From Aerococcus sp. (lineage in GTDB: Bacteria; Bacillota; Bacilli; Lactobacillales; Aerococcaceae), in contig JAUMZL010000004.1 in NCBI GenBank assembly GCA_030528155.1, forward strand, positions 1 to 64,000: 64,000 nucleotides of DNA, read 5' to 3'. The position numbers were made by a program, and so were the translations under genes. Below the pieces are notes generated by a model, which did no database searches, was not told where the DNA came from, and saw nothing but the letters and a program-made list of their open reading frames with translations. Below are positions 36,030-64,000 of this stretch, piece after piece. Numbering within the stretch: position 1 is the first letter of the stretch; every line of letters starts with the position of its first letter.

Positions 36030-36068
36030 AAATAGCCCTCAAAGCGATGGATTTGAGGGCTATTTTTT
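36030..36068 (+). terminator. Terminator after the GH13 gene
   Basis: A perfect stem of 12-13 bp (AATAGCCCTCAAA from 36031 to 36043 with TTTGAGGGCTATT from 36052) ends in a T-run. It shields the origin from incoming transcription. Confidence 0.85.
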
Positions 36069-36367
36069 ATCCGCAACTGTGGATGAGTTATCCCAACTGT
36101 TGTGGAAATGTTTGCCACGCAACTCATTGTCCACGCACTTTCATACACCTTTATCCACAACCCACACCCTGTTGAGAAGTTATGCACAGTTGTGGACAAG
36201 TTTTTGTTTTTGTGGATAGCTATCCCATTTTAAGCCTTTTTTCTATCCACATCCGGTCTTTTTCACGAGATATGAACAGGATTTATACGCAATATCCACA
36301 ACATGTGGATAAAATTCGTCCCTAGGTGGGAAAAACTTTCTCCACACTCAGTATCCACTGTGGAAAA
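36067..36367. other. oriC: oriC, DnaA-box cluster upstream of dnaA
   Basis: Perfect TTATCCACA boxes lie at 36151-36159 (+) and 36304-36312 (-); TTATGCACA at 36180-36188 and TTTTCCACA at 36367-36359 (-) fit the relaxed consensus. One-mismatch boxes occur at 36067, 36078, 36191, 36211, 36243, 36292 and 36338. About a dozen boxes in 300 bp in both orientations, together with dnaA immediately downstream, mark this as the left part of a bipartite origin. Confidence 0.88.
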
Positions 36368-36434: not shown

Positions 36435-37784
36435 ATGGAAGTGATGGATCAACTTTGGGAAGCAGTGACCGACTATTTTAAGAAGGAGCTCACTGAGGGA
36501 AGTTATGAAACTTGGTTTTCAGAACTTAAACCACTCCGCCTCACTGATGACACGCTCTACATTGAAGCTTATTCCCATTTGCACAGACGACACATTGAGA
36601 AGAATTACCTGACCCCTTTACGCCAAGTCGTTTATGAATTCTTCGGACATGCCATCAATATTGAGATTCAAGAGAAAGACGACTCAACTCATCAACTGAC
36701 GGTAGGTGAAGAGCCCCTCGCTCCACAACCGCAGCTCGCTCATAACCGCTATCACCGCAAAGTAGACGAACTCAATCCCAAATATACATTCGATAACTTC
36801 GTCGTTGGTGAGGGCAATAAGATGGCTCATGCGGCCGCTCTTGCCGTTGCAGAAGGCCCAGGGATGGACTACAATCCCCTCTTCTTCTTTGGGGGCGTTG
36901 GTTTAGGAAAAACGCATTTGATGCAAGCTATCGGACATGAAGTCCTGCGTCGCAATCCTAATGCGCGCGTGAAATACGTGACCAGTGAAACCTTCACCAA
37001 TGAACTGATTGAAGCGATCCGTACGCAGACAGCCAATGAATTTCACGAAGAATACCGTACCGTTGACATGCTGTTAGTAGATGATATTCAATTTATCGGG
37101 GGCAAAGGCACCACCCAAGAGGAGTTTTTCCATACCTTCAATGCGCTCTACAACAATAACAAGCACATCGTTCTCACGAGCGATCGTGACGCTAGCCAAT
37201 TGCCAGAGCTGGAAGACCGCCTCGTGTCGCGCTTCCGCCAAGGGTTATCCACCGATATCACCCCACCAGATTTAGAGACGCGGATCGCGATTTTGCGTAC
37301 CAAAGCTGAAGTCAGCAGCATTGATATTCCCGATGAAACACTCAGCTACATTGCCGGACAAATCGATTCGAATATTCGTGAACTGGAAGGGGCATTAACT
37401 TCCGTACAGGCCTACGCCAAGATGAATGGTGAAATATTGACGCCAGACATCGCTGCCAAAGCCCTCAGGATTTATAAAAACGAAAGTCCAAAAGCTGCAC
37501 CATCCGTTGCTAAAATTCAGGAGATTGTGGCTAACTACTACGATGTATCCGTTGACGATCTCATCGGTAAAAAGCGCAAACGCCAAATTGTTGTTCCCCG
37601 GCAAATTGCCATGTACTTAGCTCGTGAAGTGGCTGGAGGGACGTTACCAAAAATTGGTCAGGAATTCGGTGGGCGCGATCATACGACCGTCATGCATGCC
37701 AATGCTAAAGTTGAAGAGATGCTCCAAGAATCCCCAGACATTCGCAAAGATCTTAAAAACATCAAAACAATGCTGGCACGTTGA
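36435..37784 (+). CDS. dnaA: Chromosomal replication initiator DnaA
   Basis: A 449-residue initiator, normal length. Seen: N-terminal DnaB-contact domain I (1-80), a short linker, AAA+ domain III with Walker A GGVGLGKT (153-160), Walker B LLVDDIQF (about 215) and a C-terminal helix-turn-helix with the DnaA-box signature GRDHTTVMHA (about 416). It binds TTATCCACA boxes and melts oriC. AAGGAG lies 11 bases from the ATG. Boxes flank the gene on both sides. Confidence 0.98.
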   Translation: MEVMDQLWEAVTDYFKKELTEGSYETWFSELKPLRLTDDTLYIEAYSHLHRRHIEKNYLTPLRQVVYEFFGHAINIEIQEKDDSTHQLTVGEEPLAPQPQLAHNRYHRKVDELNPKYTFDNFVVGEGNKMAHAAALAVAEGPGMDYNPLFFFGGVGLGKTHLMQAIGHEVLRRNPNARVKYVTSETFTNELIEAIRTQTANEFHEEYRTVDMLLVDDIQFIGGKGTTQEEFFHTFNALYNNNKHIVLTSDRDASQLPELEDRLVSRFRQGLSTDITPPDLETRIAILRTKAEVSSIDIPDETLSYIAGQIDSNIRELEGALTSVQAYAKMNGEILTPDIAAKALRIYKNESPKAAPSVAKIQEIVANYYDVSVDDLIGKKRKRQIVVPRQIAMYLAREVAGGTLPKIGQEFGGRDHTTVMHANAKVEEMLQESPDIRKDLKNIKTMLAR

Positions 37785-37941: not shown

Positions 37942-38085
37942 TGTGGATAACCTTCCTGTTTACCCACAGACTTATCCTTAGGGTTATCCACAGTGGAAAA
38001 CTTTTAATTCGCTCTTATTGCGGCCGTTATCCACATAATTAACAGGCCCTAATACTACTACTATTTTTACTAATATAAATAGATA
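37942..38085. other. oriC right part: DnaA boxes, DnaA-trio and unwinding element
   Basis: The 350-bp dnaA-dnaN spacer has perfect boxes at 37942-37950 (-), 37984-37992 (+) and 38027-38035 (+), and a one-mismatch box at 37960. Seventeen bases after the last box TACTACTACTA (38053-38063) gives the TAG-triplet DnaA-trio on the opposite strand, followed by AT-rich DNA (38063-38085). This is the layout of the Bacillus subtilis strand-opening element. Melting likely begins here. Confidence 0.82.
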
Positions 38086-61506: not shown

Positions 61507-61746
61507 ATGGCACAAAATCGTCGCCGTGGTGGTCGCCGTCGTAGAAAAGTATGCTACTTCTGCGCTAACCATATGGACCATATCGATTATAAAGATGCAG
61601 ATCTTTTGAAACGTTTCATGTCCGAAAAAGGTAAGATTTTGCCACGTCGCGTTACCGGGACTTGCGCAAAACATCAACGTACCTTAACTGCAGCTATCAA
61701 GCGTGCACGGATCATGGCATTAGTACCATTCACAGTGAAGGACTAA
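61507..61746 (+). CDS. rpsR: Ribosomal protein bS18
   Basis: A 79-residue basic protein. Seen: an Arg-rich N-terminus [14 protein letters not shown] and [27 protein letters not shown]18 pairs with S6 on the 30S platform. GGAGG lies upstream; a terminator ends the operon. Confidence 0.97.
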
Positions 61747-61771
61747 TGCTGTTTCGAATAATAGACATTAC

Positions 61772-61806
61772 AGGAGACTTATCATTTGATAGGTCTCCTT
61801 TTTTAT
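61772..61806 (+). terminator. Terminator after rpsR
   Basis: AGGAGACTTATCA and TGATAGGTCTCCT (61772-61784 and 61787-61799) pair over 12-13 bp with one G-U, followed by a run of T. Confidence 0.85.
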
Positions 61807-61900
61807 TGCGCTCGTTGCTGGGAAATATAAATGAGGGCATGCCTGTAAAGTGGAAAAGATCGTAGCTAAAGGAAAGAAGAATAAGGATAGAAATAGTAAA

Positions 61901-62439
61901 TTATCCACAAACACCATGGTGAAAACTGAGGAAAAGATGTTAATAACTAAGGTTATCCACAAAATCAACTGAATAATAACTATAAATAGTGACAAGAATG
62001 GACAATAAACTAGGTAGTTGCGTAGATAACCCTTACAATAACACCTTAAATAGAATAAACTGTAGCAAATATACAACATTTCTAGCGTCCAAAAAGAATA
62101 TCCGTTCGTCATAGTAACAGATTATCCACAGAAAAGGTGGGAAACTTCGCTAATGTGGATAAATGTGTAGATATGTTAATAAGTGTTCGTATAATGGGTG
62201 GATAAAAGACCTGTTTCACGTGGAACACTGTGGATTTGTGCATATTTTTTGTGGATAAGAACATACTGTTCTACTTTATCCACTTTTTAATAGATAAGAA
62301 CATATATTTTCATCTGGTTTTGCCATAACATAGGTGGATAACTGAAGTCTAAGAAAAGAGATACTTTTTGATTAGAGGTTGTAATCAAGAGAAAGGTCTA
62401 TCAATTAAAAATCCCTTTTCCCCCTCCATTTGTGGACAA
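61901..62439. other. Second DnaA-box cluster
   Basis: Perfect TTATCCACA boxes lie at 61901-61909 (+), 61953-61961 (+), 62122-62130 (+), 62154-62162 (-) and 62250-62258 (-). One-mismatch boxes lie at 62197-62205 (-), 62276-62284 (+), 62333-62341 (-) and 62431-62439 (-). That is nine boxes in 540 AT-rich bases without coding sequence. A parS site lies among them. No DnaA-trio is evident, so I do not call it an origin. Confidence 0.75.
62212..62227. promoter_or_regulatory. parS: parS centromere site 1
   Basis: TGTTTCACGTGGAACA matches the 16-bp ParB-binding parS consensus (TGTTNCACGTGNAACA). It lies in the DnaA-box cluster. ParB loads here and SMC is recruited for chromosome segregation. Confidence 0.92.
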
Positions 62440-63155
62440 CGCATCGCAAACTAATGAAAAGATCAAAGTTAGTTACTCCTGCTTGTTTAAGTGAGGAATG
62501 GAACGATTGAAAAAAATGTAGGTGGCATTGGTTATCGATATTCACCCAATTACTGAGGTTTTCATTCCTAGAACAGTGATTAAATTGTTTAGCGTTTATA
62601 GCTAATGGATCCCGTCTGATATTTATGAAGATCTCGCTTAATTTTATTTAGATAGCTGTCAAAACAGATTTTGAAAGGCAAGTTGTATAAAAACTCAAAT
62701 ACTCATGGTGCCCTGTAATCAGAAGTATCATAAGCATTTAAGACACCTAAGCCTGCGTGACTTGACTCAGCCAAAGTTATCTAATATTTAGGCTATCTAA
62801 TGTTCAACATCAACGATAAAGGAGATGAGCTAAAAACTTTAGGCATCCGCTGATAAGAGCAATGAAGATATGATATTGATACAGTGATACACTAGCTATT
62901 AAACATTAAATATTGGGATTGATGATAGGCAGATTTGTCACGCTTGATAGTCATATGTTTTGTAAGGTTTTAGTCAGTAGTCTCCCAGAACAGATAAGGG
63001 AATAAGATGCTGGATTTTTAATATTGGTATGAAGAACGGAATAGCTATAGCTAAGGAATATATTGATGCTTGAAGATATTGAGAATGTGTAGAGCAAAAA
63101 CGAATAGCTTTTTTGAATTAGATACTAGTAGCCAGGTCATTAGCGAATAGAGGGA
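62440..63155. other. Non-coding AT-rich tail
   Basis: No reading frame of 60 or more codons and no recognised RNA. Short matches such as TATCTAAT repeated near 62780 and 62796 are weak. The sequence may be decayed coding DNA or a structural segment between parS sites. Confidence 0.4.
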
Positions 63156-63171
63156 TGTTTCACGTGAAACA
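63156..63171. promoter_or_regulatory. parS: parS centromere site 2
   Basis: TGTTTCACGTGAAACA is a perfect palindromic parS. The palindrome extends to 22 bp (63153-63174, GGATG at the left arm and CATCC at the right). Confidence 0.95.
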
Positions 63172-63248
63172 TCCTTTTATGATGAAAAACTATTTATGTA
63201 AAGATAGCCAGTGGTCTGAGCAGTATTGAGTTCATTAGGAGTGAATCC

Positions 63249-63416
63249 ATGACTAGCTTTTTTAATAGTGTGAACTTCAGCATTGGTATACCATCATCCA
63301 TCTTCTGGCTCGCTTCTTGCATAGCAGATAGGGATGATAGCATCTTGCTCGCTATGATGATGATCAACATGGGTTTGGTAAAATCGCTGAGCGGATTAAA
63401 GATATCATCGCCATAA
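63249..63416 (+). CDS. Possible small protein, 55 residues
   Basis: ATG at 63249 follows TTAGGAGTGAATCC, an SD at good distance, and opens a 55-residue frame ending in TAA. It is moderately hydrophobic with a Met-rich centre. No family is recognised. It is the only candidate in the last 2.2 kb and could be chance. After it, 63417-64000 shows only a small hairpin (GATGAG at 63826-63831 with CTCATC at 63839-63844). Confidence 0.25.
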   Translation: MTSFFNSVNFSIGIPSSIFWLASCIADRDDSILLAMMMINMGLVKSLSGLKISSP

Positions 63417-64000
63417 GGAATTGTATAATAAGTGCGACCTAGTATAGCATTCTCTCGAAGACTGGTATTACAAAAAATATCTCCTGATGATTTAAAGTGA
63501 GCTTGAGAATTATAAAATCAGGATGGGATCAGTAATAATTGTTTCACATTCATTAGTATGTACGGCTGTCTCCCATTCGGCTTTGACTTTGTCTTACAAA
63601 ATAGATTTCATTAGGGATCAATAGTCGACAGAAACTATAAAATGTATAAGACACCTTTTAGCTCTTTCACTTCAGTAAAAATAGTTATATGACTGGTCTT
63701 GTTGCTACTGCGGTTTATACTATGCACAACTGTAGAGATCAAAATTTAACGTTTGATAATGAAGTTAGGCAAAGAAGTGATAGTGCGATAAACATCGTGG
63801 CGTGGGTCACATAAAATAAAAATTAGATGAGCTTTTATCTCATCATTAGGACTGATTTATTCAGTATAAATACTTTTGACTTTGGTTTGAATCATTAATA
63901 GCTGTGCGTTCATTTTAGATACTTATTTTGCTGGATTTATATAAACTCTACGTTTTCGTGGGAATCATCGTATAGAAAAAGGCAAGTTAATCAATGTTTC

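Follow-up and report, generated by a model that had tools for sequence, protein, structure and literature searches.

Cells of Bacillus subtilis that lack six DnaA-box clusters initiate replication early (PMC5295017; Okumura 2012, cited via review), and according to passages of PMC5295017 no cluster with a significant role has been identified in this species. Review passages further describe Soj monomers, controlled by Spo0J, as disturbing DnaA assembly. The datA locus is credited with five strong DnaA boxes in passages of PMC5295017, and DnaA of Caulobacter binds the centromere and supports its movement (passages of PMC6399470; Mera 2014, cited via review). Division control in Lactobacillales outside Streptococcus has been little studied and the growth mode of Aerococcus is unknown, as stated in passages of PMC12203958. 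A search of the open-licence literature for parS, ParB or DnaA boxes together with Aerococcus or Lactobacillales found nothing on parS or DnaA boxes of Aerococcus.

The coordination of initiation with segregation is an open question. DnaA-box clusters and DnaA-bound centromeres are already known; across Aerococcus, a genus of Gram-positive cocci, the sites of both systems are found together in a single short locus that is mostly non-coding. This locus is real and conserved, and it suggests that replication start and chromosome segregation may be wired together there.

DnaA boxes and parS sites in the gap before gdpP

The window, a stretch of 64,000 nucleotides, belongs to the draft genome G000 (1.67 Mb in 38 contigs, 95.5% complete, sites in the missing parts being invisible); coordinates prefixed C28 run on beyond its end. 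A motif scan of the window found five perfect DnaA boxes (TTATCCACA) and four with one mismatch between 61901 and 62439 (Table 1), recovering the positions given in an earlier sequence-only reading that had singled out this segment as a second DnaA-box cluster. The perfect boxes span 358 bp, lie about 24 kb from dnaA (36435-37784) and equal in number those of oriC (two before and three after dnaA), as that reading had counted. Only 36 perfect boxes occur genome-wide in the draft. Per 540 bp, the cluster holds five, oriC at most three and the remainder of G000 at most two, so that no other 540-bp stretch is as rich; outside the cluster and oriC the perfect boxes are single, except for one pair on contig C21. 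When 36 boxes were placed randomly in 20,000 rounds, the maximum was three in 540 bp. Dense DnaA boxes outside oriC, the property by which we recognise a DBC or datA-like cluster, are therefore present at this position.

The expectation that no equally dense cluster lies elsewhere was examined with the full perfect-box lists of five genomes (540-bp maxima were computed for G000, G005, G007 and G014, and G006 was judged from its box list). It stood in G000, G007 and G014, the last two having four and six perfect boxes at the locus, the highest of each genome. It did not stand in G005, where the two perfect boxes of the locus are tied with those between htrA and rlmH, or in G006, where the locus has one perfect box and an inverted pair is found elsewhere (C1:515607-515630).

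The cluster occupies the rpsR end of a gap of 4,094 bp that runs from 61747 to C28:65839. The genes rpsF (60534), ssb (60909) and rpsR precede it, gdpP starts at C28:65840, and rplI and a replicative helicase gene follow further on. The name gdpP was assigned from position and from an NCBIfam match below its cut-off; a search with the protein retrieved eight loci, all from Aerococcus, the nearest being 87% identical. The G+C content of the gap is 34%, against 38-51% in 1-kb steps of the window outside it. The segment had been read as devoid of genes, and an ORF scan from rpsR to gdpP extends this to the entire gap, 1.8 kb beyond the end of the window, in which no supported ORF was found. A lone frame across the cluster, 114 aa long, overlaps the terminator of rpsR, and Pfam gave nothing better than E 0.2 for it; no ORF of at least 70 aa starts within 3 kb downstream of the cluster. 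A hidden gene was rejected for lack of a supported ORF in the gap. A hidden RNA was likewise rejected, as no Rfam match at the gathering threshold falls in the gap and only one tRNA was matched elsewhere.

Nine parS-like sites with up to two mismatches were found in G000, six of them perfect and three with one mismatch to the parS consensus. All nine lie in the gap, some 24-28 kb past the dnaA end, that is, near oriC as in a chromosomal parABS centromere. The parS site that had been noted inside the segment, TGTTTCACGTGGAACA, differs from the consensus at one position and turns out to be one member of this larger set. Its place between two boxes puts DnaA boxes within the parS region, as in a Caulobacter-type centromere. 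Cognate par genes are encoded as well: G000 has one ParB-family match, on another contig (ParB_N, E 1.8e-38), directly preceded by an ORF resembling a ParA ATPase, which was identified by visual inspection of its sequence.

A perfect palindrome of 50 bp (C28:63978-64027; L001 3978-4027), which scores as a terminator in either direction, is centred on the parS at 63995, and the site at 65653 has 13-bp extra arms. Extended palindromes around parS were rejected as a rule of the genus, arms of at least 7 bp occurring at 8 of 79 sites, which is a tendency only.

Table 1. Coordinates of the locus, of the oriC boxes and of the htrA-rlmH clusters
Feature	Position	Strand	Basis or remark
oriC perfect boxes before dnaA	36151, 36304		Motif scan
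oriC perfect boxes after dnaA	37942, 37984, 38027		Motif scan
rpsR, last gene before gap	61507..61746	+	Pfam Ribosomal_S18, E 3.6e-28
Gene-free gap	61747..64000, on past window to C28:65839		ORF scan
Intrinsic terminator-like hairpin after rpsR, left border of locus	61772..61799 (L001 1772-1799)	+	12-pair stem, then T run
Perfect DnaA box	61901..61909	+	Motif scan
Perfect DnaA box	61953..61961	+	Motif scan
DnaA-parS core, best-conserved gap piece against sister species G012	62069..62290		70% over 226 columns, E 3e-25
Perfect DnaA box	62122..62130	+	Motif scan; conserved in G012
Perfect DnaA box	62154..62162	-	Motif scan; conserved in G012
Third motif ATAAGTGTTCGTAT	62179..62192	+	Exact form ATAAGTGTTCGKAT
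One-mismatch DnaA box	62197..62205	-	Motif scan
Embedded parS TGTTTCACGTGGAACA, one mismatch	62212..62227		Between boxes 62197 and 62250
Perfect DnaA box	62250..62258	-	Starts 38 bp after start of embedded parS; spacing equal in G012
One-mismatch DnaA box	62276..62284	+	Motif scan
One-mismatch DnaA box	62333..62341	-	Motif scan
One-mismatch DnaA box	62431..62439	-	Motif scan
Perfect parS	63156..63171		Consensus scan
Perfect parS	63995..64000, across window end to C28:64010		Consensus scan
Six more parS	C28:64189, 64679 (1 mismatch), 64732 (1 mismatch), 64789, 65401, 65653		Consensus scan
htrA-rlmH cluster, G000	C21:10270-10471 (L092)		3 boxes up to one mismatch
htrA-rlmH cluster, G014	C1:330280-330512 (L093)		7 boxes up to one mismatch; ~370 kb from oriC
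htrA-rlmH cluster, G005	C1:439654-439895 (L094)		5 boxes up to one mismatch; ~250 kb from oriC

Conservation and history of the locus

The locus was compared among 15 Aerococcus genomes (G000 and the region before gdpP from 14 further genomes), which represent fewer than 15 independent lineages, as G007/G008 and G010/G015/G017/G018 are close relatives. Gap borders were set by an ORF rule; the G018 gap was taken as 2,815 bp, the border gene ending at 2,789. All 79 parS sites with up to one mismatch in the 15 genomes lie in the gap before gdpP (the five sites of G018 were matched by count between two site lists) and form arrays of 1 to 11 sites. Seven of the relatives are single contigs and gave the same parS outcome as the draft G000. 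Aerococcus agrisoli (L013), a row dropped from the comparison, has five parS and a few boxes. Perfect DnaA boxes are present in 15 of 15 gaps and amount to 44, where shuffling the gaps predicts 0.52. With one-mismatch boxes included, the count was never reached by 500 shuffles in 11 of the 15 gaps; it was reached by 62 shuffles in G009, 15 in G010, 11 in G018 and three in G017. The proposal that a DnaA cluster and parS share one non-coding locus is thus well supported and holds across the genus.

Six of the 15 gaps are not adjoined by rpsR (G009, G010, G011, G015, G017 and G018), and in these the boxes still lie beside parS and gdpP. The dnaA-gdpP start distance is 15-32 kb in the 13 of 15 genomes with both genes on one contig. 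The gap of G014 (3,530 bp) is not entirely gene-free, since it contains a DUF3278 gene (L025 6817-7362), and the main box group of this genome is placed after that gene.

A parS with at most two mismatches is embedded in the cluster of eight genomes (G000, G006, G007, G008, G012, G014, G015 and G016), and only a form with three or four mismatches is found within the cluster of G005, G009, G010, G017 and G018. A parS of G011 begins 66 bp ahead of the closest box in the main group, and no embedded parS was found in the DnaA cluster of G013. The exact composite in which parS is followed by a box within 30 bp, searched with a pattern that covers one orientation only, was retrieved from five genomes among 395 of the order (14 of the 395 being Aerococcus), all five from Aerococcus and at this locus, and from 1 of 249 genomes in a phylum sample, G000 itself. 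YabA was found in 17 of 17 genomes searched, and its loss was rejected as an explanation of the cluster.

Between G000 and its sister species G012, conservation in the gap is highest in a core with three perfect boxes and the embedded parS, from which a box lies at the same 38-bp offset in both. The next best match is the 74-bp stretch that precedes gdpP (E 2e-11). Identity over the whole gap is 46% (without gaps), compared with a mean of 44% and a maximum of 45% for shuffled G000 gaps against G012 (12 trials); with the core removed it is 44%, the level of shuffled sequence. In a k-mer comparison that presupposed no motif, the 9-mers common to 14 divergent gaps (11 from Aerococcus and three from other genera) were all pieces of parS or TTATCCACA and the common 12-mers were pieces of parS, while the best k-mer in shuffled controls reached 11 of the 14 gaps.

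A third motif in the cluster, ATAAGTGTTCGTAT, resembles half a LexA operator fused to a DnaA-like box. Exact copies of ATAAGTGTTCGKAT number four in the 15 Aerococcus genomes, all inside the cluster (G000, G006, G013 and G014); none of its 18 one-mismatch copies is in the gap. The motif read backwards gave 15 matches with up to one mismatch, so that only the exact copies stand out. One of the one-mismatch copies in G006 precedes an ImpB/MucB-type polymerase gene, as CGAACAAGTGTTCG, which resembles a Gram-positive LexA box.

A weaker DnaA-box cluster is located between htrA and rlmH in three Aerococcus genomes, with two perfect boxes in each (Table 1). It contains no parS, the sites of the genus being all at gdpP. 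The rpsR-gdpP locus is therefore not the sole cluster outside oriC, and coupling to parS is not needed for every DnaA cluster.

Among other genera, the sample comprised 26 of 55 family genomes with a gdpP match, in which 25 gaps were measured; L047, with no gdpP frame found, is in no gap count, and L045, with a broken gdpP frame, is in the gap table and not in the tree. At least three boxes occur in eight of the 25 gaps (in G051 without a perfect one) and none or one in the other 17. Genera g16 and g19 have the DnaA cluster in gaps that contain no more than one or two parS, and a DnaA cluster can thus live without a parS array. When mapped on a 39-row gdpP tree, the label "at least three boxes" needs two changes, which under a midpoint root are one gain before Aerococcus, g3, g4, g13, g16 and g19 and one loss inside g13. 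Whole-genome searches of 14 other-genus genomes placed 25 of 38 parS in the gap; the remaining 13 comprise nine in the rpsF-ssb interval, two within gdpP or immediately behind it and two at a distance of about 20 kb. One parS some 80-130 bp upstream of gdpP, together with another in the rpsF-ssb interval, recurs in many other genera of the family (L035-L055) and probably marks the old position of the centromere. From the gdpP tree and the parS positions in relatives, it looks as though the centromere position is old, the DnaA cluster was gained once and parS then multiplied in the gap.

Possible roles of the locus

We lean, with a confidence that falls a little short of even, towards an interpretation in which the gap combines the centromere with a DnaA-box cluster that restrains initiation and is sited where ParB and Soj gather. 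ParB would load on the nine parS sites and DnaA would bind the neighbouring boxes, which may take up DnaA or hold it in assembled form. Because it lies within the first tens of kilobases to be replicated once the origin fires, the cluster would double in number at once, and the doubled cluster could restrain a second initiation. ParB at the embedded parS would turn Soj into the monomer that blocks DnaA assembly, and in this way the state of the centromere could determine the amount of DnaA held by the cluster. The genome encodes YabA, ParB and a ParA-like protein, so that the controls of DnaA known from Firmicutes are available. The coupling of DnaA to parS is supported by the interleaved core and by boxes that stay with parS; it is weakened by the decayed embedded parS of some species, by the genera with few parS and by the htrA-rlmH cluster. 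The weak box excess in G009, G010 and G018 and the one perfect box of G006 count against this interpretation. By analogy with the B. subtilis clusters, datA and the Caulobacter centromere, the tuning of initiation and the tie to segregation that the sequence-only reading had proposed are both plausible. A bolder form of this interpretation, which we consider rather doubtful, holds that DnaA assembly on the interleaved boxes and ParB loading on parS would directly exclude or control each other, so that the centromere would read the state of initiation; such an element, with a single gain ahead of the Aerococcus lineage and later multiplication of parS around it, would to our knowledge be the first in Firmicutes.

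DnaA at the centromere might instead start or license the ParA-driven movement of ParB-parS and have no part in initiation. In Caulobacter, according to passages of PMC6399470, DnaA binds at parS, and DnaA levels insufficient for initiation are still enough to move the centromere. The conserved core of Aerococcus does interleave boxes with parS, and both ParB and a ParA-like protein are encoded. However, parS is not always inside the cluster, related genera have DnaA clusters in gaps holding just one or two parS, and we know of no role of DnaA in centromere movement in Firmicutes, which makes a Caulobacter-like function unlikely. The clusters of g16 and g19, like the one without parS at htrA-rlmH, would agree with a plain DnaA sink close to oriC that shares the gap with parS by chance, the gap being a ready place for non-coding sites and the two systems having no contact. 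Chance sharing is nevertheless improbable, given that the G000-G012 core keeps both site types at fixed spacing and that boxes remain beside parS and gdpP where rpsR is unlinked. The location of the cluster at the rpsR edge of the parS array would suit a DnaA roadblock that limits ParB sliding towards the ribosomal operon; this, transcription control or a mere relic we regard as very unlikely, because the cluster is conserved while the rest of the gap is unalignable and because the 3 kb downstream contain no start of an ORF of at least 70 aa.

A second or former replication origin at the locus is barely conceivable, even though its perfect boxes are as many as those of oriC and the replicative helicase gene begins 3.4 kb after the gdpP start. 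The sign of the GC skew switches at 38-39 kb, where dnaA lies, with no switch at 62 kb, and the trio element TACTACTACTA, which accompanies boxes in the dnaA-dnaN part, before dnaN, has no counterpart in the gap of G000, where TA[CT] runs of three or more units are absent. On these two grounds, the skew and the missing trio or unwinding element, a second origin was rejected. Of 13 other gaps examined, 11 have scattered three-unit TA[CT] runs; in G005, such a run lies about 70 bp beyond the final box of the cluster. The oriC of G000 is bipartite (36067-36367 and 37942-38035), with 11 boxes before dnaA and four after it when up to one mismatch is allowed. An origin of the cluster as a copy of the oriC array was set aside: some relatives share with oriC a convergent box pair 11 bp apart, and no alignable copy turned up.

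Comparison with known systems

The locus comes with natural variants: decayed embedded parS, arrays differing in their number of sites, and related genera with clusters and few parS. With these variants and a single locus, a direct Gram-positive test of DnaA action at a centromere is possible, in chromosomes whose parS found so far all sit in one gap.

The locus resembles the DnaA-box clusters of B. subtilis in lying outside oriC and in belonging to the same phylum, and the B. subtilis regulators Soj, Spo0J and YabA have counterparts in Aerococcus. It differs from them in that the Aerococcus cluster is interleaved with parS and equals oriC in perfect boxes, whereas the passages of PMC5295017 on B. 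subtilis do not mention parS. With datA of Escherichia coli it shares a position outside oriC and roughly five strong DnaA boxes within some 1 kb (passages of PMC5295017). The same passages describe datA as needing IHF and promoting DnaA-ATP hydrolysis; unlike Aerococcus, E. coli has chromosomes without par genes, according to a review passage. DnaA boxes at a centromere near the origin are shared with Caulobacter crescentus (passages of PMC6399470). That species belongs to another phylum, however, and the locus of G000 has nine parS and nine predicted boxes in a gene-free gap, the arrangement being conserved throughout the genus. Finally, the locus is like chromosomal parS clusters near oriC in its consensus parS, its origin-proximal position and the presence of parAB, and differs in that the parS found in the genome are all in one gap, with DnaA boxes inside.
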